Below are positions 3,137 to 25,815 of a DNA stretch of 64,000 nt, piece after piece. The stretch covers positions 124,001 through 188,000 of the forward strand of contig NZ_PDEQ01000002.1 in NCBI RefSeq assembly GCF_002554795.1, written 5' to 3'. How positions within the stretch are numbered: position 1 is the first letter of the stretch; each line of letters opens with the position of its first letter. The translations under genes and the position numbers were made by a program. The notes under the pieces were generated by a model. It was not told where the DNA came from and did no database searches. It saw only the letters and a program-made list of their open reading frames with translations. Origin of the DNA: Longibacter salinarum (GTDB taxonomy: Bacteria; Bacteroidota; Rhodothermia; Rhodothermales; Salinibacteraceae).

Positions 3137-3150
3137 CACAAACGTTTTCA
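3137..3150. promoter_or_regulatory. LacI-type operator, proximal to lacI-like gene
   Basis: CACAAACGTTTTCA matches the 14-bp palindrome TGCAAACGTTTGCA at 11 of 14 positions, including the central AAACGTTT. It lies 72 bp upstream of the regulator's own start codon, so it may serve autoregulation. It is 96 bp centre-to-centre from the stronger site at 3233-3246, about nine helical turns, a spacing compatible with looping. Confidence 0.55.
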
Positions 3151-3232
3151 GGAAAAGAACGATCTGACGAGAATTGTTACATTGAATCGGCTGAAAAACG
3201 TTCCAGCACGCGATGAGTGAATGCCAATGTAA

Positions 3233-3246
3233 TGAAAACGTTTGCA
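3233..3246. promoter_or_regulatory. LacI-type operator upstream of susC
   Basis: TGAAAACGTTTGCA differs at one position from the perfect palindrome TGCAAACGTTTGCA that occurs at 12255-12268 and 20714-20727. It lies in the divergent region between the regulator and susC. Confidence 0.7.
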
Positions 3247-3351
3247 ACTATCCATTTCTTTGTGCACCTTAGGTACCGCAACATGATGAGGTGGCGCCCT
3301 TTTTCCCGCTCTTTCGACCACAGATCGCGTTTTCGATTTCCACCTACCGTG

Positions 3352-3361
3352 GAAGCGCTTC
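3352..3361. promoter_or_regulatory. Second-type LacI-family palindrome GAAGCGCTTC
   Basis: GAAGCGCTTC is a perfect 10-bp palindrome with a central CG, the form many LacI-family regulators bind (compare CcpA cre sites). A near copy (GAAGCGCTTT) occurs at 12273-12282 beside the strong operator of the second unit. Its presence in both promoters suggests either a second LacI-family regulator or a weaker site for the same one. Confidence 0.45.
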
Positions 3362-3517: not shown

Positions 3518-6500
3518 ATGATGACACGAGTCTGGACCCTGAGCCTCTTGCTCAGTACCCTTCTGTTAATGATCACCTGGACGCCGGCGCCGGCGCAGGC
3601 GCAGTCCGACCGCGAAATATCTGGACAGGTGACCGACGCTGTCACCGGCGAAACGCTACCTGGCGTGAACGTCTTTGTCCCGAGTACGAAACAGGGAACA
3701 GCGACGGGGATCGACGGAACATACACGCTGACGGTTTCTGAAGAGGCGGATTCTCTGTCGTTCTCGTACGTGGGCTACGAGACCATGACGGTTCCGCTCG
3801 CGGGGCGAACGGAGATCGATGTTGCGCTAGCCCCGGCGACCCTCGAAGCGGGGGAGTTGGTTGTCACGGCGCTCGGCATCGAGCGAGAGTCGCGCACGAT
3901 CGGATACTCCGTGCAGGAGGTCGAGGGTTCGGATCTGAGCCAGACGGCTGAGCTCAACGTCATCAACTCCCTGCAGGGACAGCTTGCCGGGGTACAGGTT
4001 CAGCCCTCGGGAACCGGGCCGGGCGGATCGTCGCGCATCGTAATCCGCGGAATCCGCTTCCTCGGGTCGAGCAACCAACCCCTCATCGTTCTGGATGGCA
4101 TTCCCATTCAAGGGGGCGGCCGCCAGCAGACGGGCTCGTTCGGCGGGTTCGACTACGGAGGCGGGATCGGGGACATTGACCCAAACAGCATCGCCAGTCT
4201 GACGGTACTTCGCGGTGGAAACGCGGCCGCTCTATACGGGTCACGCGGCGCCAACGGGGCAATTGTCATCGAAACGAAAAAGGGAACGCAGGAGACCGAG
4301 GTGACCGTCAGTTCGCAGACGACCGCCGGTGAACCGCTCGTTCTGCCTGATCTTCAGAACGAGTACGGGCGAGGAAATAACGGTACGCTCACGCAAGGAA
4401 GCGACGGCATTCCCGTCGTCCCGGCTGGTGACATTAGCTGGGGGCCGCGTATGGAGGGGCAGGATGTGAGGGATTGGACCGGGAGCGTCCAGCCCTACAG
4501 TCCGCAGCCGAATAACGTCGAAGACCTGTTCGACACGTCGTACAGTACCAACAACAGCATCTCGTTCGCGACGGGGAACGAGACGGCGACGGCCCGCGCG
4601 ACCATCTCGAACGTGCAGAGTGCAGGCACGCTTCCCGGCAACGAGCTCGATCGCACAAACATCTCGCTGGCGAGTTCGGCGGATCTATCAGACCGATTTA
4701 CAGTGGACGGGCGTGTTGGATATGTCGCGCAGTCTGCATTCAACCGGGTAAACGTGGCAAAGAGTCCCGACAACCCGATCTACAACGCCTATTACTTCCC
4801 GAGAAACCTCCGCCTCAGCGACCTGGAGGACTTCCGGACGAGCGACGGCGATCCTCGACTCTGGTTGGATGAGTCGGCTGCCGATTTTTCGACCCGTAAC
4901 AACCCGTACTGGACGGTCAACCTGAACACGAACGAAGACGAGCGCCGTCGTGTCCTCGGGTACATGCGCTTGAAATACGACTTCGCGGACTGGCTCAACG
5001 GCTTCATCCGGGGTGGGACGGATTACAATACGCTCCGTCGTGAGGTACGCGTCGCATCGGGCACGAGCTACAAAGTCGCCCAGTGTGGATCGGACGGCAG
5101 CCGCCGATGCGGCGAGTATCTGGCCGAGCAGACCATGAGTCAGGAGACCACGTTCGATGCGCTACTTGACGGCGAGCGTGAGCTCACGGACGATGTCACT
5201 GGACGCCTGGGAGTGGGCGGCGAGTGGCGTTTCGAGCGCGGTGAGACCACCGGGACATCCGGAAGCGGACTGAGCATCCCCAACTTCTTTACGGCGGGTA
5301 ACCTGACATCGCCGACGCCGACGTACGGCTTCAGTGAGAAGGAAGTCCGGTCGCTCTACGCGCTGTTCACGATCCGGTATCGCGACTACCTCTTCCTTGA
5401 CCTCACCGCTCGTAATGAGTGGTCGTCCACGCTACCGGAGGACAACAACTCGTACTTTTACCCGTCGGCGACGGCCGGATTTATCTTCTCAGACATCTGG
5501 GGGCCGTCGTGGCTGAGCTTCGGGAAGTTTCGCGCATCGGTTGCTCAGGTGGGAAGCGACACGTTTCCGTACCGCACGATGCTCGAGTACGACGTGCAGG
5601 GGCAGGGGCATGCCGGGCAGTCGTTCGGAAGTGTTCAGGTCGCTCTGCCGGGTGTCGATCTGAAGCCGGAGATGACGACAACGACAGAGGCTGGGCTCGA
5701 CCTTGAGTTCGTCGATGGACGTTTTGCTCTTTCCAGCACCTATTACTTGACGAACACCAGGAATCAGATCTTGGATCTTCCCATTCCGCCGGCGTCCGGA
5801 TGGCGAAGCGGAATCATCAATGCTGGGAAGGTTCGAAACGAGGGCGTAGAGCTTCGCTTCGAAGCCGCCGCGGTGGACGGAGACGACTTTCAGTGGGATA
5901 TCGATGTGAACTGGTCGACCAACGCCTCCGAGATCGTCAAACTAACCGACGACATCGATACCTACGAGCTATCGTCTGATCTAGGCGTGACGATCGAGGC
6001 ACGCGAAGGCGAACCGTTCGGACAGATTTACGGCACCGCATACCAGCGGACCGACGACGGCCGGCGAATCGTCGACCAGAATGGTCTCCCCGTTGGTATT
6101 TCGTCGGACTCGCTTGCACTCCTGGGGAATTTTCAGGCGGACTGGGTCGGCGGCGTGTCCAACACATTCAGGTACAAGGGGATCGGACTGAGCGTTTTAC
6201 TGGATGTCAAGAAAGGAGGCGACATTTTCTCCCTTTCGAATGCTGTTGCGGCCCAGCAGGGAACCGCTGCCTTCACGGTCGATGGACGCGAGGCATTCTA
6301 CAATGGTAATGGCGGCATCGTCGCCGAGGGCGTCGTCAACACGGGTACGGCCAGCAACCCGACGTACGAAGAAAACACGCAAGCCGTGGATCCGCAGGCG
6401 TACTGGTCCCGCGTGGGCGGAGAAGGCGGGATTACGGAGGAGTTTGTCTACGATGCCAGCTACGTCAAGCTGCGTCAGGTGACGCTGAGTTATCGTTTGC

Positions 6501-6700
6501 CCTCGGGTTGGATTCAGCCCGCCCGCTTGCAATCGGCCCGCGTATCGGTGTTCGGTCGTAACCTGGCCTACCTCTTCAAGAATACGCCTGGATTCGATCC
6601 GGAGTCGACGTATAGTACCTCGCTCTCGAACCAGGGCCGCGAAGCATTTGCCTATCCGCCTACGCGGAGTATCGGGTTTAGTCTAAACCTGACGCTGTGA
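3518..6700 (+). CDS. SusC/RagA-type TonB-dependent outer-membrane receptor
   Basis: A 1060-residue SusC-like TonB-linked transporter. A cleavable signal peptide (residues 1 to about 29, ending APAQAQ) is followed by a carboxypeptidase-regulatory-like domain (about 33-115, ISGQVTDAVTGETLPGVNV). Next comes the plug domain (about 120-240), with the SusC signatures VIRGI, PLIVLDGIPI and GNAAALYGSRGANGAI. The rest is a long beta-barrel ending ...STSLSNQGREAFAYPPTRSIGFSLNLTL, which finishes on the hydrophobic/aromatic pattern expected of outer-membrane proteins. SusC imports oligosaccharides captured by the partner SusD, driven by TonB. It heads the first unit, 83 bp before susD, and is preceded by LacI-type operators, so induction by the locus substrate is likely. 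The substrate is not readable from the sequence. Confidence 0.96.
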   Translation: MMTRVWTLSLLLSTLLLMITWTPAPAQAQSDREISGQVTDAVTGETLPGVNVFVPSTKQGTATGIDGTYTLTVSEEADSLSFSYVGYETMTVPLAGRTEIDVALAPATLEAGELVVTALGIERESRTIGYSVQEVEGSDLSQTAELNVINSLQGQLAGVQVQPSGTGPGGSSRIVIRGIRFLGSSNQPLIVLDGIPIQGGGRQQTGSFGGFDYGGGIGDIDPNSIASLTVLRGGNAAALYGSRGANGAIVIETKKGTQETEVTVSSQTTAGEPLVLPDLQNEYGRGNNGTLTQGSDGIPVVPAGDISWGPRMEGQDVRDWTGSVQPYSPQPNNVEDLFDTSYSTNNSISFATGNETATARATISNVQSAGTLPGNELDRTNISLASSADLSDRFTVDGRVGYVAQSAFNRVNVAKSPDNPIYNAYYFPRNLRLSDLEDFRTSDGDPRLWLDESAADFSTRNNPYWTVNLNTNEDERRRVLGYMRLKYDFADWLNGFIRGGTDYNTLRREVRVASGTSYKVAQCGSDGSRRCGEYLAEQTMSQETTFDALLDGERELTDDVTGRLGVGGEWRFERGETTGTSGSGLSIPNFFTAGNLTSPTPTYGFSEKEVRSLYALFTIRYRDYLFLDLTARNEWSSTLPEDNNSYFYPSATAGFIFSDIWGPSWLSFGKFRASVAQVGSDTFPYRTMLEYDVQGQGHAGQSFGSVQVALPGVDLKPEMTTTTEAGLDLEFVDGRFALSSTYYLTNTRNQILDLPIPPASGWRSGIINAGKVRNEGVELRFEAAAVDGDDFQWDIDVNWSTNASEIVKLTDDIDTYELSSDLGVTIEAREGEPFGQIYGTAYQRTDDGRRIVDQNGLPVGISSDSLALLGNFQADWVGGVSNTFRYKGIGLSVLLDVKKGGDIFSLSNAVAAQQGTAAFTVDGREAFYNGNGGIVAEGVVNTGTASNPTYEENTQAVDPQAYWSRVGGEGGITEEFVYDASYVKLRQVTLSYRLPSGWIQPARLQSARVSVFGRNLAYLFKNTPGFDPESTYSTSLSNQGREAFAYPPTRSIGFSLNLTL

Positions 6701-6783
6701 TCGGCTGCGACCTGACGCCAAAAGCTCGATTCCGACCGGAAATGTATTCCCAATTGCTGTCCCATCCCGACGTGCACGATTCA

Positions 6784-8340
6784 ATGTCGAATACCCGACC
6801 GCCTCGTCTTCTCGTTCTCGCGTGTACAGTGCTGCTCGTCGTCCCCATGTTCTTCATCGGGTGCGACTTCGGCTCGACCAATGACGATCCGACGGCGCCC
6901 AACACGATCAACCCGGATCTGCTGTTCACGCGTTCGCTCGTGTACGGCACGCTGCGCTACGACGTGTATCAACGGAGTCAGCATCTCTTTGGCAACATGT
7001 ACGCGCAGTACGTTGCCAACCTCGTTCCCAACTTCCCGACCGACCGGTACGAAACGAGCGGTGCGTACGACAACTGGGCGGAAGCCTTCTGGAACACGTC
7101 GTACGCTGCGTACGGTGGCGGCGCGAACGTGGGGGAGAACGTCAGCAATCCGGGAATCAATATTCAGCAGGCCATCGAGCTCACACAGGATGATCCGCAG
7201 TTGGTCAACAAGACGGCCATTGCGCGCATCTGGAAAGTCTGGCTGTTGCATCGCGTGACCGATGCCTGGGGCGACGTTCCGTACAGCGAGGCCTATCAGG
7301 GGGATGAAGGAAACCGGACACCGGTTTATGATCCGCAGGAAGAGATCTACCGCGATATGCTTGCTGTCCTCGAGCAGTCCGCTGAGGCAATCGATCCGTC
7401 GATATCGGGCGGCAGCTTTCGGTTCGGGGACGCCGATGTTCTATTCAACGACGATCTGACCAGGTGGCGGCGGTTTGCGAACGCACTCCGCCTGCGCCTG
7501 GCGATCCGCGCTTCGGAGGCTGCGCCGTCACTGGCAGAACAGCATGTGCGGGATGTGCTCTCCAGCGGCGAGGTGATGCAGGGCAACGACGACTCCGCCC
7601 GCCTCATCATGGGAACAGCAGAAGGCGAGTTTGTGAACTCCAATCCGCTTTCGATTATCGCCGGCTTCGGGGACGAGCGCGTGAGTGAGCTGGCCGTTCA
7701 GATTCTGAGCGACCGCAACGATCCCCGTATCGGCGAGATCGCTGATACAACCATTACGTTCCCGCGCGACGGCGTTCTGTATCGTGGATTGCCGAATGGG
7801 CTCAGCGCATCGGAGCTGAACGGCATCCAGTCGTTTCGTTACTCGCGCATCGGGGATCGCTTCCGAGAAGCTGACAATCCCGTTCCGGTCATTCTGTACC
7901 CCGAGGTCGAGTTCCTCCAGGCCGAGGCTGCGCTTCGCGGCTGGGCCTCGACGACAGCAGAAGATCACTACGAAGCCGGCATTCGAGCGTCGCTCGAAAT
8001 GTATGGAATTGACGACCCGACGACCGTAGACAACTATTTGCAGGAGCCGAACGTGGCGTGGCCGGCATCGGGCACCTTCGAGGAGAAGCTGGAGGCGATC
8101 ATTACACAGAAATGGATTGCCATCTACACGCAGGGGTTCGAAGCGTGGGCCGAGCAGCGGCGGACCGGCTACCCCGAGCTGCTGACCATCTCCGGGCAGG
8201 GCGCAACGGGCGGTGAGGTCCCGACCCGCATTCTGTATCCCAATGTCGAGCGTTCGCTCAATTCGGCCAACGTCAACGAAGCCGCACAGCGTATGGGTGG
8301 AGACACGCCCACGACACGCGTGTGGTGGGACGTCGACTAG
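6784..8340 (+). CDS. SusD/RagB-family glycan-binding lipoprotein
   Basis: A surface lipoprotein of about 518 residues when started at the ATG at 6784. That start directly precedes a lipoprotein signal (LVLACTVLLVVPMFFIGC, lipobox FIGC), whereas an upstream ATG overlapping the susC stop would add 29 hydrophilic residues before it. The mature protein resembles the SusD-like_2 branch: NTINPDLLFTRSLVYG near the start, a tetratricopeptide-rich alpha-helical body (WKVWLLHRVTDAWGDVPYSEA, FLQAEAALRGW) and a C-terminal TTRVWWD. The DAWGDVPYSEA segment is highly characteristic of the family. It would cap the SusC barrel and bind the glycan at the cell surface. It sits between susC and a GHL10 hydrolase in one operon. 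Confidence 0.94.
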   Translation: MSNTRPPRLLVLACTVLLVVPMFFIGCDFGSTNDDPTAPNTINPDLLFTRSLVYGTLRYDVYQRSQHLFGNMYAQYVANLVPNFPTDRYETSGAYDNWAEAFWNTSYAAYGGGANVGENVSNPGINIQQAIELTQDDPQLVNKTAIARIWKVWLLHRVTDAWGDVPYSEAYQGDEGNRTPVYDPQEEIYRDMLAVLEQSAEAIDPSISGGSFRFGDADVLFNDDLTRWRRFANALRLRLAIRASEAAPSLAEQHVRDVLSSGEVMQGNDDSARLIMGTAEGEFVNSNPLSIIAGFGDERVSELAVQILSDRNDPRIGEIADTTITFPRDGVLYRGLPNGLSASELNGIQSFRYSRIGDRFREADNPVPVILYPEVEFLQAEAALRGWASTTAEDHYEAGIRASLEMYGIDDPTTVDNYLQEPNVAWPASGTFEEKLEAIITQKWIAIYTQGFEAWAEQRRTGYPELLTISGQGATGGEVPTRILYPNVERSLNSANVNEAAQRMGGDTPTTRVWWDVD

Positions 8341-8391: not shown

Positions 8392-10194
8392 ATGATACCG
8401 ACCGTGTTTCCTCGTTCTGCTTCCTGGGTGGCTGTTGTCGCTCTCCTCGTTCTGACGGCGGCCGCCTGCGACTCCGGCGGAGACGGGCCGTCAGATCCTG
8501 ACACGCAAGTTGCCCTCTCCTTTGCCCCTGACGCCTCGTACGTCGTAGGAAATGACGTCGGGGTGACGGCGACGGTAACGACCGTCGACGGCGATCCGGT
8601 CGAAGGCGACACCGTTGCGTTTTCGGGTGATGGCAGCTTCCAGCCATCTACGGGCACCACGGACGCGGACGGCGAGGTGGTGGCGACGTGGACGCTAGCG
8701 ACCGACAAGACCGGCGCGGATGCACAGTTCGTCCGTGTCGAAACGGCGAAGGGGAAGTCGGACGAGCAGAGCGTGTCAGTCAATCCTGGTGCCGTGGGGA
8801 GTATTACGGCGACAGTGACCGATACCGTGATCGCCGTCGACAGCACCACCACGCTCTCCGTTGTCGATGCGGCCGACGAGTTTGGCAATTCCATCAGCGA
8901 CCTCTCACGCTACACGTTCAGCTGGACGAGCGTTACACCGGATAGCGCCGCAATCGAAGGCGACAGCGTTGGGACGGAGGTGACGGTTCGCGGACTGGGC
9001 GACGGGATGGCGCACTTTTCCGTTTCCTCCGGTGCTGCGCCGGACGCGAGCGTCTCTGACATTCAAAAGGCAGAGAAGGCGGCTGCCACCGAGGTGGACG
9101 TCGATGTGCGCCGCCATGAGCTCCGGGGCGTTTGGCTGACGAACGTGGACTCGAACGTGCTCGACAGCCGGGCCAATATCCGTGAGGCGATGGAGTACCT
9201 GGAGGCAAACAACTTCAACGTCGTCTTCCCCGTGGTCTGGAATAAGGCCGCGACCATGTACCCGAGCACAGTCATGGACACGCTGCTCAACCGGCCCATC
9301 GATCCTGCCTACGCCGGACGCGATCCGCTACAGGAGATCATTGATGAGGCGAAGCCGCGTGGGATTGCGGTGATTCCGTGGTTCGAGTTCGGCTTCTCGT
9401 CTTCGTACAGTCAAAATGGAGGCCCGATTATCGACAAATATCCCAGCTGGGCCGCGAAAGACGTGAATGGCGACCTGCTGGTCAAGAATGGTTTTGACTG
9501 GATGAATCCCTACCGGCCGGAGGTGCAGAATCTATTGATGTCCCTCATCATGGAAGTCGTGAACAACTACGACATTGACGGCATCCAGGGGGACGATCGG
9601 CTTCCGGCAAATCCGGTCGAAGGCGGGTACTCCGAATACACGAAGGAGCTTTACCGTTCGGAACATAACGGCCAGAATCCGCCAACGAACGAACAGAATC
9701 CGGACTGGAAGAAGTGGCGCGCTGATAAGCTTACCGCCTTTGGAGAGCGCGTCTACAACAATGTGAAGGGCGTTGACTCAGACCTCATCGTCTCATGGTC
9801 CCCGAGCCCCTACTCGTTCGGATACGATGAGTACCTGCAGGACTATCCCGAATGGGTCGACCGTGGCATCACAGACATCGCGCATCCGCAGCTGTACCGC
9901 CGCGATGTGCCGTCGTATAAGTCGCTATTGAGCCAGCAGCTCAGCATCACGGATCGAAGCAAGCTCCTCGGCTTCTACCCGGGCATTCTCTTGAAAGTCG
10001 GCGGGTACGTTGCCGAGCCGGATGACATGGTGGCTGTGGTGAAAGAGAACCGGGCAAATGATGTGTACGGCGAGGTGTTCTTCTTCTACGAAGGCCTCCG
10101 TGCGTACAACGGCGACGTGACCCAGGCACTGGTCGATCGGACCGTCTATCGTGATCCGGCGCCGCTTCCGTTCCGTCGCGCCAGCACGAAGTGA
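8392..10194 (+). CDS. GHL10-family glycoside hydrolase-like lipoprotein
   Basis: A 600-residue lipoprotein. The signal (VALLVLTAAAC) is followed by one or two bacterial Ig-like domains (about 40-130, PVEGDTVAFSGDGSFQPSTG, and a second region to about 245). The C-terminal domain from about 248 is a family-10-like glycosyl hydrolase (GHL10, related to YngK/UPF0748). Its marks are ELRGVWLTNVDSNVL, YLEANNFNVVFPVVWNKA, AKPRGIAVIPWFEFG, GIQGDDRLPAN and VSWSPSPYSFGYDEYL, which fit a TIM-barrel with acidic residues at strand ends. It probably cleaves the locus glycan at the cell surface or in the periplasm. It lies 51 bp after susD and 57 bp before the symporter. Catalytic specificity within GHL10 is largely unknown, so the substrate is left open. 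Confidence 0.85.
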   Translation: MIPTVFPRSASWVAVVALLVLTAAACDSGGDGPSDPDTQVALSFAPDASYVVGNDVGVTATVTTVDGDPVEGDTVAFSGDGSFQPSTGTTDADGEVVATWTLATDKTGADAQFVRVETAKGKSDEQSVSVNPGAVGSITATVTDTVIAVDSTTTLSVVDAADEFGNSISDLSRYTFSWTSVTPDSAAIEGDSVGTEVTVRGLGDGMAHFSVSSGAAPDASVSDIQKAEKAAATEVDVDVRRHELRGVWLTNVDSNVLDSRANIREAMEYLEANNFNVVFPVVWNKAATMYPSTVMDTLLNRPIDPAYAGRDPLQEIIDEAKPRGIAVIPWFEFGFSSSYSQNGGPIIDKYPSWAAKDVNGDLLVKNGFDWMNPYRPEVQNLLMSLIMEVVNNYDIDGIQGDDRLPANPVEGGYSEYTKELYRSEHNGQNPPTNEQNPDWKKWRADKLTAFGERVYNNVKGVDSDLIVSWSPSPYSFGYDEYLQDYPEWVDRGITDIAHPQLYRRDVPSYKSLLSQQLSITDRSKLLGFYPGILLKVGGYVAEPDDMVAVVKENRANDVYGEVFFFYEGLRAYNGDVTQALVDRTVYRDPAPLPFRRASTK

Positions 10195-10251: not shown

Positions 10252-12072
10252 ATGCTTTTTATCGACTATGCCATTGTGGTGGTGTACCTGATCGCCCTCA
10301 TCGGGATCGGGCTCTATCTGCAGCGGCGCGCTGGGTCGAGCATCGGGCACTTCTTCCTCGGCGACAACAAGATTCCCTGGTGGGCACTCGGCGCGTCGGG
10401 AATGGCGTCGAACCTCGACGTGTCGGGGACGATGATCATCGCGGCCTTGATATACGCGCTCGGGGTGCAGGGCTTCTACATCGAGATTCGCGGTGGCGTC
10501 GTTCTGCTGCTGGCCTTCTTCATGATCACGATGGGGAAGTGGAACCGGCGGGCGAAGGTCATGACGCTGGCGGAGTGGATGGAGTACCGGTTTGGCTCTG
10601 GATTCCAGGGGCAGACGGCTCGCGTCCTCGCGGCCGTAGCGAATCTCGCCTTCGCGATCGCGACGGTGACCTACTTTGCGCAGGGCGCAGGTATTTTCCT
10701 CGGTGAAATCCTGGGGATCCCGGCAGACGCAGCGGCGATAGGCATGATCGCCCTTGCCTCGATTTACACCATTGCGAGTGGTCTGTACGGCGTCGTCTAC
10801 ACGGACGTCTTCCAGGGCTTCTTCGTATTTGGAGCGATCGCCTACGTGATCTATCTCGTGGTTACCGGCTACCCGATCCCGCAGGAATTTGCCGTGTCGG
10901 TCCCGATGGGGGATGGCTCCTTTCGGGAGATTATGACCACCCGGGAGGCGTGGACGGACGTTATACCCGATTGGAAGAAGGACTTGCCGGGGACGTACGG
11001 ACAATACAGCCTCTTCGGCATCGGCATCCTGTTCTATTTGATGCGCTCGTGCATCGATGGTATGAGCGGGACCGGGGGATACGTGATCCAGCGGTTCTAT
11101 GCGGCGAAAAATGAGAGGGAGGCCGGGCTCCTCAGCATGTTCTGGATCCTCCTGCTATCGCTCCGGTGGCCCTTCGTCATCAGCATTGCCATCATGGGGA
11201 TCTCCTACGGCGCGTCGAACCAGGTCATCGCGAACCCGGAGGAAGTTCTCCCGATCGTGATTCTCGAAATGATTCCGACCGGATTGAAAGGGCTGCTCGT
11301 GGCGGGGCTTATCGCGGCCGCCATGTCGACCTTCGACTCGGTCGTGAACGCCGGGGCTGCCTACTGGGTGCGCGATATCTACCAGCGGTTCCTGAAGCCA
11401 GAGGCGACGGAGAAACGTCTGGTCTGGCATTCTCGCGCGGCCACCGCGGTTATCGTTGTCGTCGGGATGCTATCGACCTACGCGTTTGAGAGTCTGAACG
11501 ACGTGTGGGGATGGCTCACGATGGGTCTCGGCACTGGGTTGATCGTACCCCAGATGATCCGGTGGTACTGGTGGCGATTCAACGGGTACGGCTACGCCGG
11601 CGGAACCGTTATCGGCATGTCGCTCGCCATACTCCAGCAGATATTCCTTCCCGAACTATCCGAACTCTGGATCTTCGTTGGTATCGGGTCGATCACATTT
11701 ATCGCCTGCATCGTGATCGCACTGATGACCCCACCGACGGACGAAGAGGTGCTTGACGAGTTCTACCGTGAAACGAAGCCGTTCGGTTTCTGGAACACCG
11801 TACGGGACAAGATCGATGCGCTGGAGATCAAGGAGGTGAAGAAGGAAAACCGCCGCGACATCGCCGGACTGTTCCTCGCTGTGCCGTGGCAACTCGTTCT
11901 GTTTCTCACGACGATGATGTTCGTGACGCGGGAGTGGGATGCGTTCCTCACACTCCTGGGTGTGCTCATTGTCCTGAGTGTTGCGCTTTACCTCGTATGG
12001 TACCGGCACCTGCCGGGTGCCGTCGACCTCGCGCTTGCCTCCGATGGCCCGGAGGAAGAGGCAGCAGGGTAG
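10252..12072 (+). CDS. Sodium:solute symporter (SSS family)
   Basis: A 606-residue inner-membrane protein with about 13-14 hydrophobic helices. The N-terminus reads DYAIVVVYLIALIGIGLYLQ and is followed by FFLGDNKIPWWALGASGMAS, the TM1/TM2 signature of the SSS (SLC5) family. A conserved AAMSTFDSVVNAGAAYWVRDIYQRF motif in the second half is also typical. The C-terminal part adds a charged cytoplasmic stretch (about 500-550) and two more helices. It would carry a monosaccharide or small oligosaccharide into the cytoplasm with Na+. It is the last gene of the first unit, 57 bp after the GHL10 gene, and completes an outer-membrane import, cleavage and inner-membrane import series. Confidence 0.92.
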   Translation: MLFIDYAIVVVYLIALIGIGLYLQRRAGSSIGHFFLGDNKIPWWALGASGMASNLDVSGTMIIAALIYALGVQGFYIEIRGGVVLLLAFFMITMGKWNRRAKVMTLAEWMEYRFGSGFQGQTARVLAAVANLAFAIATVTYFAQGAGIFLGEILGIPADAAAIGMIALASIYTIASGLYGVVYTDVFQGFFVFGAIAYVIYLVVTGYPIPQEFAVSVPMGDGSFREIMTTREAWTDVIPDWKKDLPGTYGQYSLFGIGILFYLMRSCIDGMSGTGGYVIQRFYAAKNEREAGLLSMFWILLLSLRWPFVISIAIMGISYGASNQVIANPEEVLPIVILEMIPTGLKGLLVAGLIAAAMSTFDSVVNAGAAYWVRDIYQRFLKPEATEKRLVWHSRAATAVIVVVGMLSTYAFESLNDVWGWLTMGLGTGLIVPQMIRWYWWRFNGYGYAGGTVIGMSLAILQQIFLPELSELWIFVGIGSITFIACIVIALMTPPTDEEVLDEFYRETKPFGFWNTVRDKIDALEIKEVKKENRRDIAGLFLAVPWQLVLFLTTMMFVTREWDAFLTLLGVLIVLSVALYLVWYRHLPGAVDLALASDGPEEEAAG

Positions 12073-12270: not shown

Positions 12271-12272
12271 CG

Positions 12273-12282
12273 GAAGCGCTTT
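12273..12282. promoter_or_regulatory. GAAGCGCTT-type palindrome next to the strong operator
   Basis: GAAGCGCTTT matches the GAAGCGCTTC palindrome at 3352-3361 at 9 of 10 positions. Its centre is 16 bp from the centre of the perfect operator at 12253-12270, so two regulators, or two dimers, could bind side by side. Confidence 0.4.
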
Positions 12283-14169: not shown

Positions 14170-14189
14170 TCAAATCGATACCGATGCTT

Positions 14190-15883: not shown

Positions 15884-15920
15884 CCGGGGTTCGCACGTCT
15901 TGTGAAGAGGCGAACCCCGG
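15884..15920 (+). other. Intercistronic hairpin between T9SS protein and FAD oxidoreductase genes
   Basis: CCGGGGTTCG (15884-15893) and CGAACCCCGG (15911-15920) form a perfect 10-bp GC-rich stem with a 17-nt loop. There is no U-tract after it. In this operon it could protect the upstream mRNA from 3' exonucleases, giving more secreted protein than enzyme, or terminate partially. Confidence 0.5.
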
Positions 15921-17802: not shown

Positions 17803-17849
17803 AATTGGTCGACGCCTCCCCGGCAAAAACATTCTCCCCTTTCCGCATC

Positions 17850-20606
17850 ATGGACGCCCCTCTCCACGGCATTGTTGTCTCCCACACGCACTGGGACCGG
17901 GCCTGGTACCTGCCGTTTCAGGTCTTTCGGCACCGGCTTGTGCGACTCGTCGACCGGCTCATCGAGCTGCTGGAGACGAACGAGGAGTACCGTGCCTTCA
18001 CGCTGGATGGGCAAACCGTTCTACTCGACGACTATCTCGAGATTCGCCCCGACCAGGAGGAGCGACTCCGTACACTGATCGACGAAGGGCGTCTTCTCAT
18101 CGGTCCGTGGTACACGCTGCCGGACCTGTTTCTCGTCTCGGCCGAATCCGTCGTGCGCAACCTGCAGGTTGGCCGCGCGCACTGCGACGAATTTGGTGGC
18201 GGGATGACGGTCGGATACATTCCAGATCCGTTCGGACATTTCGCTCAGATGCCGCAGATCCTCCGCGGTTTCGGCATGCAGACGTACATCTTCATGCGCG
18301 GTCTCGGGCGCGAGGAGAAGGAACGTCTGGGGGGCACGTTCGACTGGCGGGCGCCGGATGGGTCCACGGTGCGAGCAATCTACCAGCCACAGGGCTACTT
18401 CCCGGCCGGGAATCTCGGACATCCGGAGGTCTACGGCCGGTTCGACGGTCACACGCCGACGGTCGACCTCGCCGAGGAGCGGGTCCGCGAGGCGGTGGAG
18501 ACGCTCAGCGACGTTCAGCAGGAAAAGACACTCCTCCTGAGCAACGGCTTCGATCACATGCCGGAGCAGCCGGAGCTACCCGATCTCCTCACGTCGTTGA
18601 ATAAGCGAATGACGGATGTGGACCTGGAGCACGGCACGCTCCCCCAGTTTGTCGATCTTCTGCTTGCGGAGTATGGGACGCACGAGACGTATGAAGGGGA
18701 TCTTGTCGGAAATGCCGATCATCCCATTCTGCTCAATGTCTACTCGACTCGCATCTACCTGAAGCAGCAGAACCACCGAGCGCAGTCGCTCCTGACGCGC
18801 CATGTCGAGCCGATGAGCGCGTGGCTTGAGACGGAGTCCGTTGGTCCGGACGCGCGGCCCTTTCTCGATCAGGCGTGGCGCCTTCTTCTCCGTAATCATC
18901 CGCATGACGACATCTGTGGATGTAGTGTCGACGCCGTTCATGATGACGACGAGCAACGCTTTCGGCAGATTGACGAGATTGGAACGTCGCTTCTTCGCGA
19001 ACACCTCGAGTCACTCGTTCTGTCCGGAGGATTTGAGGAACCGCAGGGGAACGAAGAATGGCCGTCTGACGACCGGCTGGACGAGGGGGCACCTGACCTT
19101 GGTACCACAGACGTGTTCGTGTTTAATCCGCACCCCTTCGCGCACAGGCAGCGCGTGGAGGCCACCATCATGATGCCCGAACCCGAGGGCACGCGGTCCG
19201 ACGATCCACGCCCGGCTCGACCTCTCGCTGGGTTGATGCCCGACGGCACGCCCGTTGACATCCAAACGCTCGAAACGGAGGGCGATGTCGTCCGCAGCAA
19301 CTATCTGGAGGCGACCTGGGGACGGCGATACCGCGTCTCCTTCGACGTCGAACTTCCGCCCTTGGGCTACCAGGTCGTTCGCATTGCCGAAACGCTACAA
19401 GCTATCGAGGACAAGAACGACCCCGCGGAGGTCCTACTTGAGAATGACGCGTACCGCGTGTGGGTTGAGGGTGAACGCCTGCAGATTCTCGAGAAGGAAA
19501 CCGGGACTCGTTTCGGTGACGCACTCGGATTCGAGTACCATCTCGACGCCGGCGACACCTACTCATACGGTCCGGTTCCTGACCATGGGCCGTGGAACGC
19601 AGAGTTTGTTTCGAGTCAGCACCATCCTGATCGCCGGGAGACGCTACAGCTTCAGTATGCTCTCGCCGTACCGGAGCAGTACGATCGTGACGCCGAACAG
19701 CCGATTGGGACGACGACGCTCGATCTAACGGTCGATATCACGCTCACGCTGCAGCAGGCCGTTGGCATCTCGGTTCGTTATGAGAACACGGCTCGGGACG
19801 GGCGCCTTCGCATCGTTCTCCCGACGGGCCTGATTCGGGACGAGTCGCTGGCGGATGGCCACTTCGCGCTGCGTCCGAGGAAGAAGCCGCCATGGCTTAC
19901 CCCCGAGGACGAGCCGGAGCGCCACGACGGCTATCCCGGCGAACTGAACTATCCGACACAGCACCAGGGGGATTTTGTGATGGTAGAACAGACATCCGAT
20001 GATTCCGACCAGGGCCGACGGACGTGGATCGCAAACCGTGGGCTCCCGGAGTACGAATTGTTGACCGACGGTGAGCAGGCGCAGGTTGCCGTGACGCTTC
20101 ATCGCGCCGTTGGATGGCTCTCCGTTGCGGATGGACGCATCCGAGGCTGTCAGGCCGGACCGACGGTTCCAACACCCGGTGCGCAGTGTCAGCGCGAGAT
20201 GCACGCCGAGCTCGCCTGGGGACATGGCATCATACCCCGATTCGAGGCGGTGCGCCGCGCTCGTGCCTTCGCACACCCGGCCCGTGCGACTGAAATTCCG
20301 TACCTCCCGTACGCCGAGTCGAGGGGACGCTGGTCGCGCTCACGTTCCATCGCCAGGATTGACAATCCAGCCATCGATCTTACGGCGCTCCGTCCTTCCG
20401 TTACGGACGACGCTCAGGCGATTCGACTTTGCAATTTGTCGGCCGACGAGCAAACGGCCCGCCTTTCGATCGGACTCCAGGTGGAAGAATGGTGCGTCTC
20501 GACGCTGCAGGAGGGATGGGACGAGGCCTCCGTTCGCGATGTAAACAGAGGGACGATCGACATCACGGTAGGGCCGCACGAAGTGGTGACGTTGCTTCTC
20601 CGATAA
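17850..20606 (+). CDS. GH38 alpha-mannosidase-like glycoside hydrolase
   Basis: An enzyme of about 918 residues, started at the ATG at 17850 because the catalytic domain begins 10 residues later; an upstream TTG would only add an unconserved tail. The zinc and substrate motif SHTHWDRAWYLPF (residues 11-23), the nucleophile region GYIPDPFGHFAQMPQIL (nucleophile Asp about 126) and the late metal-binding motif NHPHDDICGCSVDAVH are the GH38 signature, in the form of the MngB/bacterial alpha-mannosidase subgroup. The middle helical and large C-terminal beta domains are present, so the length is normal. No signal peptide is visible, so it should be cytoplasmic. It would remove alpha-linked mannose, or mannosyl-glycerate-like units, from imported oligosaccharides. 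It is the last gene of the second unit. Confidence 0.9.
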   Translation: MDAPLHGIVVSHTHWDRAWYLPFQVFRHRLVRLVDRLIELLETNEEYRAFTLDGQTVLLDDYLEIRPDQEERLRTLIDEGRLLIGPWYTLPDLFLVSAESVVRNLQVGRAHCDEFGGGMTVGYIPDPFGHFAQMPQILRGFGMQTYIFMRGLGREEKERLGGTFDWRAPDGSTVRAIYQPQGYFPAGNLGHPEVYGRFDGHTPTVDLAEERVREAVETLSDVQQEKTLLLSNGFDHMPEQPELPDLLTSLNKRMTDVDLEHGTLPQFVDLLLAEYGTHETYEGDLVGNADHPILLNVYSTRIYLKQQNHRAQSLLTRHVEPMSAWLETESVGPDARPFLDQAWRLLLRNHPHDDICGCSVDAVHDDDEQRFRQIDEIGTSLLREHLESLVLSGGFEEPQGNEEWPSDDRLDEGAPDLGTTDVFVFNPHPFAHRQRVEATIMMPEPEGTRSDDPRPARPLAGLMPDGTPVDIQTLETEGDVVRSNYLEATWGRRYRVSFDVELPPLGYQVVRIAETLQAIEDKNDPAEVLLENDAYRVWVEGERLQILEKETGTRFGDALGFEYHLDAGDTYSYGPVPDHGPWNAEFVSSQHHPDRRETLQLQYALAVPEQYDRDAEQPIGTTTLDLTVDITLTLQQAVGISVRYENTARDGRLRIVLPTGLIRDESLADGHFALRPRKKPPWLTPEDEPERHDGYPGELNYPTQHQGDFVMVEQTSDDSDQGRRTWIANRGLPEYELLTDGEQAQVAVTLHRAVGWLSVADGRIRGCQAGPTVPTPGAQCQREMHAELAWGHGIIPRFEAVRRARAFAHPARATEIPYLPYAESRGRWSRSRSIARIDNPAIDLTALRPSVTDDAQAIRLCNLSADEQTARLSIGLQVEEWCVSTLQEGWDEASVRDVNRGTIDITVGPHEVVTLLLR

Positions 20607-20711: not shown

Positions 20712-20729
20712 ATTGCAAACGTTTGCAGT
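20712..20729. promoter_or_regulatory. LacI-type operator of the third unit
   Basis: ATTGCAAACGTTTGCAGT shares a perfect 14-bp palindromic core with the site at 12253-12270. It ends 21 bp before the ATG at 20751, so it overlaps the expected promoter or 5' leader. This placement also fixes that ATG as the start, since longer upstream reading frames would run through the operator. Confidence 0.78.
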
Positions 20730-20750: not shown

Positions 20751-21413
20751 ATGGCTCAATATTCTCCTTCGAACATCGACGCTCGCAGTTTCCTTCGGGT
20801 CGTCACGACAGAGCATCAGGGACGGTTTCTTGTTCGATTTCCGGAAGGGTATCGTACGGATCCGTCGCGCAGATGGCCGTTTCTGCTCTTTCTCCACGGG
20901 GCGGGGGAGCGGGGGCGCGACCTCAACCTTGTGCAGCGGCACGGACCGCTTTCCGATAGCGCACCGGATGAGATCCCAGCGATCATCGTGGCACCGCAGT
21001 GCGATCTGGAGGATTGGTGGAATGCTGCCGCTCTAGAGGCCCTGGTTGAGTCGTGCCTGGAGCGCTACCGTGTCGACGAGGCGAGAATGGCGTTGACCGG
21101 CATCAGCATGGGCGGGAGCGCCGCGTGGGAGCTGGCGGCGCGTACGCCTGAGCGCTGGACAGCCGTTGCACCCATTTGCGGTCGCGCCGATCCACTGCGG
21201 GCTCCCTCGCTCGTGGATGTGCCGGTGTGGGCATTCCACGGTGCGCAGGATACCGTCATTCCGGCGGAGCAATCCAAAACGATGGTCGACGCCATCCGGT
21301 CCGTTGACGGGGAGGCGAAACTCACGATTGACCCCGACGCCGCACACGAGGTCTGGACGGATGTGTACCGTGGGACGGAAATCTATGATTGGCTCTTAAA
21401 GCCGCGCGATTAG
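20751..21413 (+). CDS. Alpha/beta-hydrolase (phospholipase/carboxylesterase or dienelactone-hydrolase type)
   Basis: A hydrolase of 220 residues. Start 20751 was chosen because the operator lies immediately upstream. It shows the alpha/beta-hydrolase plan: an oxyanion strand RWPFLLFLHGAGERGRD, the nucleophile elbow GISMGGSAAW (GxSxG), an acid in GAQDTVIPAEQ and a catalytic His in PDAAHEVWTDVY. No signal peptide is present, so it is probably cytoplasmic. In glycan loci such enzymes usually remove acetyl or other ester groups from sugars, which would fit here, but the ester is unknown. It is the first gene of the third LacI-type unit and is followed 49 bp later by the DUF4434 gene. Confidence 0.82.
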   Translation: MAQYSPSNIDARSFLRVVTTEHQGRFLVRFPEGYRTDPSRRWPFLLFLHGAGERGRDLNLVQRHGPLSDSAPDEIPAIIVAPQCDLEDWWNAAALEALVESCLERYRVDEARMALTGISMGGSAAWELAARTPERWTAVAPICGRADPLRAPSLVDVPVWAFHGAQDTVIPAEQSKTMVDAIRSVDGEAKLTIDPDAAHEVWTDVYRGTEIYDWLLKPRD

Positions 21414-21462: not shown

Positions 21463-22425
21463 ATGCAGCTGACCGGGACTTTTCTCGACGAGATTACCCA
21501 TGATATTCCGTCTCAAAACTGGGGCGCGAGGGAGTGGGCACGTGATTTCGACGCCATGAAGGCCGTCGGGATCGATACCGTCATTCTGATTCGTGCCGGC
21601 TACCGGGACCGTGCTGTCTTCGACTCGGAGGTGCTGTCGGATGCTCGTGATATGATGCCGGCCTACGACGACCTGGTCGATCTCTTTTTACGAGAAGCGG
21701 AGCGGTGCGGCATGGACTTCTGGTTCGGCACGTACGATGCCGGCACGTTCTGGGACGAGGGCGACTATCGGCACGAGGTTGACATCAACAAACCGTTCTG
21801 TGCAGAGGTCGCGGAGAAGTACGGCGATAGAGAGGCATTCGCCGGCTGGTACATCAGTCACGAGATCAACGCCTACGATGACGGGATGCTGAACGTCTAC
21901 GAGGAGCTCTCCGATCATCTTCGCGAGCTGGTCGATGTGCCAATCCTGATGTCACCGTACATGAAGGGAGTGAAGCAATTCGGGGACGAGGCGCTTGGAT
22001 TTGACGAGCACGTCCGCGAGTGGAGTACGGCCTTCGAGCGGCTCGAGGGCCTCGTTGATGTCGTCGCATTCCAGGATGGCAATGTGCCGCTGACCGAGCT
22101 TCCGCGCTACCTCGCGGCCAACCGGGAGCTCGCCGCCGCCCACGGAATCGAGAGCTGGGGGAACGTCGAGACGTTCGATCGCGATGTCCGAATTAAATTT
22201 CCCCCGATCGATTTTCGGAAGCTTCGCTACAAGATTGAACAGGCTGCTGAGGCAGGGCTCGACAAGCTGATTACGTTCGAGTTCTCCCACTTCCTGAGTC
22301 CGAACGCCGATCACCCCGCCGCTCGTGCCCTGCATCGCCGGTACCGTGAGTGGATCGATGTGGACAAATCTCCACAGGCAGCCGAACCGTCCGTAGAGGA
22401 CCGCTCCTCCATCACGCAGTCGTAA
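21463..22425 (+). CDS. DUF4434-family TIM-barrel protein, possible glycosidase
   Basis: A 320-residue protein matching the DUF4434 type: it opens LTGTFLDEITHDIPSQNWGAREW, then FDAMKAVGIDTVILIRAGY, EKYGDREAFAGWYISHEIN and VDVPILMSPYMKG, the regular strand-helix pattern of a TIM barrel. Conserved acidic and aromatic residues (WYISHEIN, AFQDG, ITFEFSHFLSP) could form a sugar site. There is no signal peptide. Relatives occur in Bacteroidota glycan loci, but I know of no defined reaction. It is embedded between the hydrolase and the epimerase (33 bp downstream), so a role in breaking down the same substrate in the cytoplasm is inferred. Confidence 0.72.
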   Translation: MQLTGTFLDEITHDIPSQNWGAREWARDFDAMKAVGIDTVILIRAGYRDRAVFDSEVLSDARDMMPAYDDLVDLFLREAERCGMDFWFGTYDAGTFWDEGDYRHEVDINKPFCAEVAEKYGDREAFAGWYISHEINAYDDGMLNVYEELSDHLRELVDVPILMSPYMKGVKQFGDEALGFDEHVREWSTAFERLEGLVDVVAFQDGNVPLTELPRYLAANRELAAAHGIESWGNVETFDRDVRIKFPPIDFRKLRYKIEQAAEAGLDKLITFEFSHFLSPNADHPAARALHRRYREWIDVDKSPQAAEPSVEDRSSITQS

Positions 22426-22458: not shown

Positions 22459-23679
22459 ATGCGCCTACCTACACCGACGCTCGATCCGGCGACTCTTTCG
22501 CCCGACCGGCGCACTCAGATTTCGTCCATTCGCCAGCGGTACCGGAGTGAACTGTATGACCGCGTGCTTCCGTTTTGGATGGAGCACTCCATCGATCGTG
22601 AGAACGGTGGATACTACAACTGTCTGGATCGCGACGGCGCGGTATACGACACGACAAAGCACAGCTGGCTTCAGGGTCGACAGGTATGGATGTTTTCAGC
22701 TCTGTATCGCACCGTCGAACCACGCGATGAATGGCTCGACATCGCACAACACGGCCTCAAATTTCTCCGCGATCATGCGCTTCGCCCGAACGGACAGGTG
22801 TTTTTCTCGCTCACAGCGGACGGCCGGCCGATTTACCAGCAGCGGAAGATCTTCTCGGAATGCTTCTACGTGATGGCTCTCGCCGAGTATGCCCGCGCAG
22901 CTGACCGGCCGGACCTCCTGAAAGAGGCCGAAGAAGGATTGGGTCGGCTGTGGGAATGGTCCTCGGATTTGACAAAAGTGGGCCGCCCGCAGCACGAGGG
23001 ACAGGCGGATGCACGGTCACTGGCCATCCCAATGATTCTGCTGAATCTGATTGATGTCGTAGCGGGCGAGAATACGTCCGACTACGCGTCCAGCGTCGAC
23101 AAACTACTCGAGCGAATCCTGCTCCACGTCCATGCAGACGACAAGATGGTGCTTGAATCCGTGGCGCCAGACGGCTCTCGACTCGACGGTGCCGATGGTC
23201 GGGTCCTGAATCCAGGCCACGCGATTGAAGCCGGCTGGTTCGTCCAACACTGGGCGCAACGACTCTCTCGGCCGGACCTTCAGGAGACCGCACGTGACAT
23301 CGTGCGATGGTCATTCGATCGAGGGTGGGACGACGAGCACGGTGGAATCTTCTATTTCCTCGACGCCGACGGCTACAGCCCGATGCAACTCGAGTGGTTC
23401 ATGAAGCTCTGGTGGCCGCACTGCGAAGCCCTCTACGCCCATCTTCTCAACTACGCTCTCTTCGGTGACGAGGAAGATTGGCAGGCCTTCAAGACCGTGG
23501 ATACTTACACCTTTGATCACTTTTCCGATCCCGAACACGGCGAGTGGTTTGGCTATCTCGACCGCGAGGGTCGCGTGACGCACAGATTCAAAGGTGCAGC
23601 CTACAAAGGCTGCTTCCACGTTCCGCGGACGCTCTGGCTGTGTGAACGCCTTCTGGGTATGCTCGACGCATCCGATTGA
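22459..23679 (+). CDS. AGE-family sugar epimerase/isomerase (N-acylglucosamine 2-epimerase type)
   Basis: A 406-residue protein of the (alpha/alpha)6-barrel AGE family. Diagnostic segments are FWMEHSIDRENGGYYNCLDRDG, TKHSWLQGRQVWMFSALY, KIFSECFYVMALAEYARA, NPGHAIEAGWFVQHWA, WWPHCEALYAHLLNY and HRFKGAAYKGCFHVPRTLW. These carry the conserved Arg, His and Glu residues of the active site. Family members interconvert GlcNAc and ManNAc, mannose and fructose or glucose, or epimerise cellobiose or mannobiose. With an alpha-mannosidase and a ROK kinase in the same locus, a mannose isomerase or ManNAc epimerase role is plausible, but sequence alone does not decide. It lies in the third unit, 33 bp after DUF4434 and 60 bp before the NagB fusion. 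Confidence 0.87.
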   Translation: MRLPTPTLDPATLSPDRRTQISSIRQRYRSELYDRVLPFWMEHSIDRENGGYYNCLDRDGAVYDTTKHSWLQGRQVWMFSALYRTVEPRDEWLDIAQHGLKFLRDHALRPNGQVFFSLTADGRPIYQQRKIFSECFYVMALAEYARAADRPDLLKEAEEGLGRLWEWSSDLTKVGRPQHEGQADARSLAIPMILLNLIDVVAGENTSDYASSVDKLLERILLHVHADDKMVLESVAPDGSRLDGADGRVLNPGHAIEAGWFVQHWAQRLSRPDLQETARDIVRWSFDRGWDDEHGGIFYFLDADGYSPMQLEWFMKLWWPHCEALYAHLLNYALFGDEEDWQAFKTVDTYTFDHFSDPEHGEWFGYLDREGRVTHRFKGAAYKGCFHVPRTLWLCERLLGMLDASD

Positions 23680-23739
23680 CACCGGAACAGCTCCTTTTCG
23701 CATCGCTCCGACCTTCTCGCTCAACCGACCTCTGAAACG

Positions 23740-25713
23740 ATGAATGCCAAGACCGCCTCTCAAACGTCCAAAGCCCAGAACGAGCCCGCGTTCGAAGCAT
23801 CGCGTCAGGCCTCTAACCGAGGAACCCAGCGCGAACGGCTGCCCGTGTTGATCTTTGAGAAGCCCTCAGAGATGTCCCATCGCGTGGCCCGACGGATCGC
23901 CAACCTGATCGAAGAACGCCAGGCGGTCGGGCAAGAGCTCGTCCTCGGCCTGCCGACAGGCTCGACGCCCATTGGCGTCTATCAGGAGCTCGTCCGCATG
24001 CATCAGGAGGAAGGTCTTGACTTCTCTAATGTCGTGACCTTCAATCTCGACGAGTACTATCCGATGGATCCAGAGAGCCTTCAGAGCTATCACCGGTTCA
24101 TGGAGGAGAATTTCTTCAATCACGTCAATATCCCGGAGTCGCAGATTCACATTCCGGAAGGCGACATCCCGCGAGAGGAGGTCGAGCGGCACTGCATTGA
24201 ATACGAACATGCGATCGAAAAGGCCGGTGGCATTGACCTTATCTTGCTCGGCATCGGGCGAAGCGGGCACGTCGGCTTCAACGAGCCGGGATCGAGCCGG
24301 CAAACGCGAACGCGCTTGATCATTCTGGACGAGATCACGCGGAAGGATGCGGCGAGCGACTTCTTCGGCGAGGAGAACGTGCCACAGGAGGCGATCACGA
24401 TGGGCGTAGGGACGATCCTCGACGCCGACGAGATTATCCTGATGGCAACCGGTGAGCACAAGGCTCCGATCGTCCGGGAGGCTGTGGAGGAAGAGGCGAA
24501 CCGATCCGTCACGGCGAGTTACCTGCAGGATCACCCGAACGCAAGCTTCTACCTCGACCGGGCCGCGGCTGGCGAACTGACGCGAGTGAAGACGCCGTGG
24601 CTGGTGCGCGACATCGAGTGGAACGAGCAGCTCGAAAAGCAGGCCGTGATTTGGCTATCCAAGAAGCTGAACAAGGCGATTCCGCGTCTGGAGTCAGGTG
24701 ACTTCTACCGCAACCAGATGCATGGCGTCGTCCATCGCTATGACAGCATTGACGACCTGACTCGCAAGATATTTGAGGACCTCCGACAGAGGATTGTTTA
24801 CAGCGACAATCTGATCAAGAACGAGCGGGTCATCCTCTTTAGTCCGCATCCGGACGACGACGTCATCTCGATGGGAGGGATGCTTGACAAACTTGTCGCC
24901 AATGGCAACGACGTCACGGTAGCCTACATGACGAATGGCTCCGTGGCCGTCTTCGATTCCGACGTTCGACGGTACCTCCGCTTTATCGAGATGTGCGGCC
25001 CGACGATGGGACTCGAAGGGGAGGCGTTCGAACACTTCAACGCAAAGCGGGCGGAGATCGAGAGCTTCCTGGATCAGAAAAGTCCGGGCGAGGTGGATAT
25101 TCAGGAGGTGCAGGAGCTGAAAGCCTACATCCGGTACGGTGAAGCGGTCGCGGCGACGGAGGTGATGGGCCTCGGGCCGGAGCACTGCCGCTTCCTCGAC
25201 ATGCCCTTCTACAAGACGGGCCGCGTGCGCAAGGATCCGGTCACGCAGGCAGATGTCGATGTCGTCCGAAACCTGCTAGAGGAGGTCGAGCCGACCAATG
25301 TTTTCGTTGCCGGTGACCTCTCGGATCCGCACGGCACGCACCGAATGTGTTACCAGGCCATCCGCGACGCGCTCGGTGAATATCGTGATGCACGAGCTGG
25401 ATCGGATGGGCAACCTGCTGCTAACGCTGCTCCGCTCGTCTGGCTGTACCGTGGTGCGTGGCAGGAGTGGGAGATCGACCGCGCGGATATTTTCGTGCCG
25501 CTCTCGAAGGCGGATCTTGGTCGAAAGGTCGAAGCGATCTTCAAGCACGAGAGCCAGAAGGACCGGGCCATGTTCCCCGGCGCCTACGACGAACGCGAGT
25601 TCTGGCAGCGCGCCCGGGACCGAAACTGCGACACCGCAGATACCCTGAACGGTCTGGGGCTGCCGGAATTCTATGCAGCGGAAGCGTTCGTGACGACGCA
25701 CGAGATGCCGTAA
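23740..25713 (+). CDS. Glucosamine-6-phosphate deaminase-like / PIG-L (LmbE) deacetylase fusion
   Basis: A 657-residue two-domain protein. Residues about 35-300 are NagB-like: LPTGSTPIGVYQELVRMH, TFNLDEYYPM (catalytic base Asp), LLGIGRSGHVGFNEPGSS and ITMGVGTILDADEIILMATG. From about 365 a PIG-L/LmbE deacetylase domain begins (LFSPHPDDDVISMGGMLDKL), with the AHPDD-type zinc motif and later DPHGTHRMCYQAI. NagB converts glucosamine-6-P to fructose-6-P and ammonia; PIG-L enzymes remove N-acetyl groups from GlcNAc derivatives. The fusion is a known Bacteroidota architecture. In the NagB loop the usual Asp before GH is Ser (GRSGH), so the substrate or mechanism may differ. It is the last gene of the third unit, followed by a terminator. 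Confidence 0.9.
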   Translation: MNAKTASQTSKAQNEPAFEASRQASNRGTQRERLPVLIFEKPSEMSHRVARRIANLIEERQAVGQELVLGLPTGSTPIGVYQELVRMHQEEGLDFSNVVTFNLDEYYPMDPESLQSYHRFMEENFFNHVNIPESQIHIPEGDIPREEVERHCIEYEHAIEKAGGIDLILLGIGRSGHVGFNEPGSSRQTRTRLIILDEITRKDAASDFFGEENVPQEAITMGVGTILDADEIILMATGEHKAPIVREAVEEEANRSVTASYLQDHPNASFYLDRAAAGELTRVKTPWLVRDIEWNEQLEKQAVIWLSKKLNKAIPRLESGDFYRNQMHGVVHRYDSIDDLTRKIFEDLRQRIVYSDNLIKNERVILFSPHPDDDVISMGGMLDKLVANGNDVTVAYMTNGSVAVFDSDVRRYLRFIEMCGPTMGLEGEAFEHFNAKRAEIESFLDQKSPGEVDIQEVQELKAYIRYGEAVAATEVMGLGPEHCRFLDMPFYKTGRVRKDPVTQADVDVVRNLLEEVEPTNVFVAGDLSDPHGTHRMCYQAIRDALGEYRDARAGSDGQPAANAAPLVWLYRGAWQEWEIDRADIFVPLSKADLGRKVEAIFKHESQKDRAMFPGAYDEREFWQRARDRNCDTADTLNGLGLPEFYAAEAFVTTHEMP

Positions 25714-25771
25714 TCGCCTGTGCAATCATGTAGCGAATCGAGCGGCAGCCCTCGGTCGTCTCAACATACAC

Positions 25772-25815
25772 ACGGCGCGACGGTGCGGTCGGAATCGCAC
25801 CCTCGCGCCGTTTTC
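25772..25815. terminator. Terminator between NagB fusion and alpha-2-macroglobulin genes
   Basis: ACGGCGCGA (25772-25780) pairs with TCGCGCCGT (25803-25811), with an inner stem GGTGCG/CGCACC, followed by a short T-run (GTTTTCTG). It ends the third unit of the sugar locus and may also serve the convergent gene on the other strand. Confidence 0.75.

Follow-up and report, generated by a model that had tools for sequence, protein, structure and literature searches.

A 64,000-nucleotide stretch of the Longibacter salinarum genome (RefSeq assembly GCF_002554795.1, contig NZ_PDEQ01000002.1, positions 124,001 to 188,000; hereafter the window, whose numbering we use throughout) carries a LacI-family regulator gene beside a susC-susD glycan locus whose units share a 14-bp palindrome, TGCAAACGTTTGCA. 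It is very likely that the adjacent LacI protein is a local repressor, and that a sugar from the imported glycan releases it and derepresses all units together. The local LacI regulon probably comprises four units, the divergent LacI-ROK pair and three others, holds about 14 genes and is autoregulated. A genome scan and conservation both support the core claim of an initial annotation, that one LacI-family regulator and one palindrome serve several units of the locus. That annotation counted three collinear units; the plus-strand clusters are real, and the count is corrected to four units and five sites, the LacI-ROK pair (unit 0) having fallen outside its coordinates.

In the proposed mechanism, a LacI dimer would bind the even, CpG-centred TGCAAACGTTTGCA at 12255 and thereby control a pair of type IX secretion system (T9SS) proteins, an FAD oxidoreductase and a GH38 protein. 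At 20714 it would control a hydrolase, a DUF4434 protein, an epimerase and a NagB-PIG-L fusion, and at 3233 the susC-susD-GHL10-symporter unit, the LacI-ROK unit or both. Weaker binding at 3137 would cover its own promoter, and 12127 would act as an auxiliary site. The imported glycan would release a sugar, probably of the mannose or hexosamine type, that frees LacI from DNA, and the units would then be derepressed together. Here we infer binding, repression, the effector and the operon boundaries. The initial annotation spoke of coordinated induction, which overstates what a sequence can show about the mode of control.

Predicted operators are confined to one functional locus

Four copies of the palindrome lie where the initial annotation had placed them and have the mismatch counts it gave: perfect TGCAAACGTTTGCA at 12255-12268 and 20714-20727, TGAAAACGTTTGCA at 3233-3246 with one mismatch, and CACAAACGTTTTCA at 3137-3150 with three. 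A fifth site, overlooked there, is TGCAAAGGATTGCA at 12127-12140, which has both half-sites intact and no central CpG. All are listed without strand. The perfect copies are the predicted operators of units 2 and 3, 102 bp and 23 bp before the respective ATG, and the 3137 copy, 71 bp before the LacI ATG, is the likely autoregulatory site; the operators of these three targets fall within about 200 bp of the target start. The one-mismatch copy is a predicted operator in the divergent gap between LacI and susC, 271 bp from the susC ATG, and 12127, 128 bp ahead of the main unit 2 operator, is an auxiliary pair of half-sites. Scans for promoters and terminators yielded no usable result.

The closest matches are concentrated in this locus. 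Pattern searches of the 4.406-Mb genome, with expectations drawn from mononucleotide composition, found the perfect palindrome twice, both times in the locus, against 0.0086 copies expected. With up to one mismatch there were five copies against 0.40 expected, three of them in the locus, and the reversed-pattern control matched once genome-wide. With up to two mismatches there were 15 against 8.7 expected, and the control gave 22. The zero- and one-mismatch copies are far above chance and constitute a real signal; the count at up to two mismatches is background. Matches with two mismatches were rejected as further targets, given that background count and their position mostly within coding frames. 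The two one-mismatch copies outside the locus (C2:548722 and C6:162513) fall within coding frames, one of a glycosyltransferase and one of a GAF/histidine-kinase (sensor-kinase) protein, and neither has a counterpart among the palindrome matches of a second Longibacter genome. An abundance of matches at unrelated genes had been named as an outcome that would speak against the regulon; the scan to two mismatches shows no such excess. The predicted operators are confined to one functional locus, and copies elsewhere are coding or background.

The five sites are the only exact blocks of at least 12 bp in diverged gaps

The strongest evidence that the five sites are functional comes from G003, an 83%-complete metagenome-assembled genome (MAG) of the same genus and the sole close genome compared. 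Across 894 bp in three diverged gaps, exact blocks of at least 12 bp are shared with G003 only at the five sites: 14 bp at 3137, 15 bp at 3233, 16 bp at 12127, 18 bp at 20714, and 32 bp enclosing the 12255 operator. The LacI protein is 97% identical in G003 and its ROK neighbor 93%. The G003 locus is rearranged and split over four contigs, and despite this rearrangement two perfect palindromes together with TGAAAACGTTTGCA, CACAAACGTTTTCA and TGCAAAGGATTGCA stand at the matching gene boundaries. Conservation matters most for the three-mismatch copy at 3137: it is not significant by count, with 1.6-1.7 such matches expected per window, and is believable because it is kept exactly in G003.

These observations leave very little room for the palindromes to be chance matches or some other repeated element, such as a repeat family, without a regulatory role. 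Such an account would draw on the background count at up to two mismatches; it fits poorly with perfect copies that occur only in the locus, are kept base for base in diverged gaps, always lie upstream of genes and stand beside a LacI gene.

Spacing is conserved in one of two pairs of sites. The 12127 and 12255 sites are 128 bp apart here and 126 bp apart in G003, about 12 helical turns in both genomes, whereas the 3137 and 3233 sites are 96 bp apart here and 331 bp apart in G003. DNA looping was dropped as a general claim because of the latter difference.

Gene content also varies within the genus. G003 has a third T9SS gene, and on its contig C255 an extra susC-susD-GHL10-symporter set separates LacI from the closer counterpart of unit 1. 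This set includes a 96-residue oxidoreductase fragment that is 99% identical to the oxidoreductase of the window. The extra set points to the gain or loss of a tandem module in this genus.

Assigning the palindrome to the adjacent LacI protein

The proposed repressor (2055..3065, minus strand) belongs to the LacI/GalR family, with Pfam LacI (68 bits, cut-off 27) and Peripla_BP_3 (144 bits) domains. The PDB chains nearest to its DNA-binding domain are CcpA, then RbsR and PurR. The sequence of the recognition helix is VSVSTVSRTIN. The hinge, VARRL, carries Leu54, a residue suited to a central CpG step, in the same context as VARGL of CcpA, so the hinge leucine pointed out in the initial annotation is indeed present. 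Operators of the LacI family are as a rule even palindromes centred on CG, and most serve autoregulation (PMC4052901).

More distant relatives carry related sites. LacI homologs at 49-55% identity occur in 11 further genomes of the order, and none of the 11 carries the same locus. In five, a related palindrome directly precedes the LacI gene itself (TGAAAACGTTTACA, TGTAAACGATTACA, TGTAAACCTTTACA, AGAAAACGTTTTC and GGAAACGTTTCG). In three others the related palindrome is about 4.7 kb away, in two of these 140-180 bp before a susC-like gene (AGAAAACGTTTTCA and TGAAAACGTTTGCG). Assigning the palindrome to the adjacent LacI gene appears well founded, if not proven.

Several points weigh against a local repressor acting on the whole locus. 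Conservation was read from one close genome, itself an incomplete MAG. In three of the 11 genomes with distant homologs, no convincing site was found near LacI. Neither LacI nor the palindrome accompanies the GHL10-T9SS-symporter-oxidoreductase core in the examined stretches of three genomes from another family of the order (G105-G107), so that Longibacter is the only genus in which the regulon itself is seen. The L. salinarum genome itself holds three other LacI-family genes, two of them adjoining susC genes, and LacI operators look alike. The palindromes could on that account be operators of another LacI-family protein, or be shared by several, and we consider this improbable. No TGCAAACGTTTGCA-type copy was found near the other LacI genes, the LacI ortholog and the sites co-occur in G003, and one of the other LacI-susC pairs has its own perfect palindrome, TGAAACCGGTTTCA at C6:85586-85599, the sole copy in the genome at up to one mismatch.

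The remaining points against the reading concern unit 1, the weakest member because its operator is 271 bp from susC, compared with published LacI sites that lie mostly 30-140 bp upstream, about 7% being beyond 200 bp (PMC4052901). The initial annotation had set a site at the head of each unit; this stands for units 2 and 3, and naming unit 1 as a certain target was an overstatement, as 3233 could serve only LacI-ROK. On this narrower account, which we rate as rather unlikely, the regulon consists of units 2 and 3 and LacI-ROK, and unit 1 answers to another factor, for example a reader of a second palindrome, GGAAGCGCTT. That motif is nearer to susC (about 158 bp) and is found ahead of further susC genes; in G003 the second susC gene carries it and no recognizable operator. 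Conversely, the 3233-type site is kept in G003 at 403 bp from LacI, far for pure autoregulation, and units 2 and 3 depend on unit 1 for uptake.

A second palindrome may mark a global regulator

The claim of a single palindrome holds for the shared one; two promoters carry in addition a different palindrome, GGAAGCGCTT. One copy, at 12272..12281, abuts the 12255 operator within the same 32-bp block shared with G003. The other, GAAGCGCTT at 3351..3359 within TGGAAGCGCTT (3350-3360), precedes susC and is not the LacI operator. Both, listed without strand, are kept at the corresponding places in G003, which has extra copies before susC.

The motif is over-represented: placements of TGGAAGCGCTT number 17 in the L. 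salinarum genome and 22 in G003, with 10 and 3 for reversed controls. In both genomes it marks central-carbon genes. About eleven loci are common to the two genomes, some intergenic and others coding; conservation is less telling for the coding copies. The shared loci include a glycerol-kinase-like FGGY kinase, an aldehyde dehydrogenase, a 2-oxoacid dehydrogenase E1, a TetR regulator, an acyl-CoA dehydrogenase, and a TonB receptor with a divergent DUF3417 gene.

Could GGAAGCGCTT simply belong to a tandem operator, as an additional site to which the same LacI protein binds more weakly? The motif abuts the 12255 operator, the two centers being 16 bp apart; like the operator it is a palindrome centred on CG, and tandem LacI sites are common (PMC4052901). 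We nevertheless hold this to be unlikely: many of the copies in both genomes are at unrelated metabolic genes, the motif is absent from unit 3, and it also stands before susC genes that adjoin other LacI genes (contig C6 of L. salinarum and C38 of G003), where the AACGTT operator is absent.

This distribution suggests that the second motif is read by a LacI-type regulator that acts across the genome and is not the local one. An orphan LacI gene at C1:462674 is only a candidate for its reader. We tentatively propose a two-tier arrangement, somewhat short of an even chance, in which glycan-uptake loci of this lineage combine a local LacI operator with a shared palindrome of LacI type, TGGAAGCGCTT(CCA), recognized by a so far undescribed global regulator of carbon use. 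If so, several susC loci, the glycerol-kinase-like and 2-oxoacid dehydrogenase E1 genes, the aldehyde dehydrogenase, fatty-acid oxidation genes and an alpha-glucan phosphorylase-like gene would come under one CcpA-like control.

Gene content fits glycan uptake and breakdown

The locus contains an adjacent susC-susD pair, the mark of a SusC/SusD-type polysaccharide utilization locus. The second gene of unit 0 encodes a ROK-family sugar kinase (1036..1959, minus strand; Pfam ROK 206 bits; best NCBIfam match fructokinase ScrK, below cut-off). All genes of units 1 to 3 are on the plus strand. Unit 1 encodes a SusC-type TonB-dependent receptor (3518..6700; TIGR04056 608 bits, above cut-off), a SusD-like lipoprotein with an N-terminal lipobox (6781..8340; Pfam SusD-like_2 309 bits; likely start Met at 6781), a GHL10 glycoside-hydrolase-like lipoprotein (8392..10194; Pfam GHL10 208 bits; distant PDB relative Cwp19) and a sodium:solute symporter (10252..12072; Pfam SSF).

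Unit 2 opens with two paralogous T9SS-sorted proteins, a (12371..14023; Pfam Por_Secre_tail) and b (14184..15866; 46% identical to a). They are followed by an FAD-dependent oxidoreductase (15967..17802; Pfam PF12831 266 bits) with a signal resembling that of the twin-arginine translocation (Tat) pathway (N-terminus MKRRDFLRNAG), and by a GH38 alpha-mannosidase family protein with three GH38 Pfam domains (17805..20606). The gap between T9SS gene b and the oxidoreductase, near-identical in G003, holds a strong plus-strand hairpin without a T-run (15884..15920; fold -38.2 kcal/mol, z -2.0), which may be a processing or stability element; because of it, transcription of unit 2 may be more complex than a single transcript. 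In G105-G107 the module runs GHL10-GHL10-T9SS-symporter-FAD oxidoreductase, with the oxidoreductase directly after the symporter.

Unit 3 encodes an alpha/beta hydrolase (20751..21413; Pfam S9/DLH/esterase), a DUF4434 protein (21463..22425; Pfam 220 bits; PDB 4h41, 'putative alpha-L-fucosidase'), an N-acylglucosamine 2-epimerase family protein (22459..23679; Pfam 189 bits; NCBIfam 404 bits, below the equivalog cut-off of 600) and a glucosamine-6-phosphate deaminase-like NagB-PIG-L fusion (23740..25713; NF002557 961 bits against a cut-off of 384). No second copy of the fusion was found in the genome, and the regulator may therefore affect the breakdown of amino sugars generally. Convergent with unit 3, at 25848-34396, lie a bacterial alpha-2-macroglobulin gene and then a transglycosylase/transpeptidase gene, a common pair that likely marks the end of the locus.

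The gene set (GH38, epimerase family, ROK kinase and NagB) is consistent with import and degradation of a glycan containing mannose- or hexosamine-type sugars, a substrate reading drawn from family membership. The glycan-enzyme families present are GH38 and GHL10; domain and structure matches assigned no substrate to the GHL10 protein, the DUF4434 protein or the T9SS pair. The initial annotation had also attributed surface cleavage to the T9SS pair, a role that finds no support. The recognizable domains of the pair are only FnIII/Ig-like and sorting domains, its N-terminal part is a low-confidence all-beta model, and full-length relatives were seen only in the genus, which has two or three copies with a genus-restricted N-terminal domain. 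The search found no PDB relative, and the structure predicted from five sequences is poor (mean predicted local distance difference test, pLDDT, 61.7). Fold matches, FnIII and propeller-like with TM at most about 0.4, gave no enzyme identity. Outer cleavage is more plausibly assigned to the GHL10 lipoprotein.

Relation to known systems

Several known systems resemble parts of this arrangement. CcpA supplies the closest solved DNA-binding domain to the Longibacter LacI protein. The cre consensus of Firmicutes is a palindrome of the same general form. CcpA is global, whereas the Longibacter LacI has no supported target outside its locus; the CcpA-like part here would be the second motif.

The local LacI regulons of RegPrecise (Ravcheev et al. 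2014, PMC4052901) share with the predicted regulon an even, CG-centred palindrome, a regulator beside its targets, an autoregulatory site, a single carbohydrate locus, and tandem or auxiliary sites. Those regulons mostly cover 1-2 operons and 2-7 genes, compared with about four units and 14 genes here, and the survey hardly covers the Longibacter lineage (PMC4052901). Palindrome type, autoregulation and local scope all follow the rules of the LacI family (PMC4052901), and the size is on the large side.

The sux locus of Xanthomonas campestris also places a LacI-type repressor next to a TonB-dependent receptor locus: mutants established that SuxR, a LacI/GalR repressor, controls the adjacent TonB-dependent sugar receptor, an inner-membrane transporter, an enzyme and itself (PMC1790865). 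It differs in serving sucrose from one small locus, with no SusC/SusD pair and no T9SS or amino-sugar genes (PMC1790865). In the same broad group as Longibacter, Bacteroides thetaiotaomicron likewise uses LacI-family carbohydrate control, with KdgR, UxaR, UxmR and UxuR acting in uronate monosaccharide pathways; its polysaccharide loci are instead treated under hybrid two-component system (HTCS) and SusR-like regulators (PMC3878776).

The local regulon is a known kind of switch; any novelty would lie in the two-tier arrangement. A literature search found no catabolite-control system shown for the lineage. For a glycan locus in a halophilic lineage with little-studied transcriptional control, the local regulon predicts which protein regulates, where it binds and which genes it controls, and it would assign T9SS-secreted proteins, a Tat-type flavoprotein and the sole NagB fusion of the genome to a single substrate. 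Should a global regulator read the second palindrome, this lineage would have a catabolite-control system.

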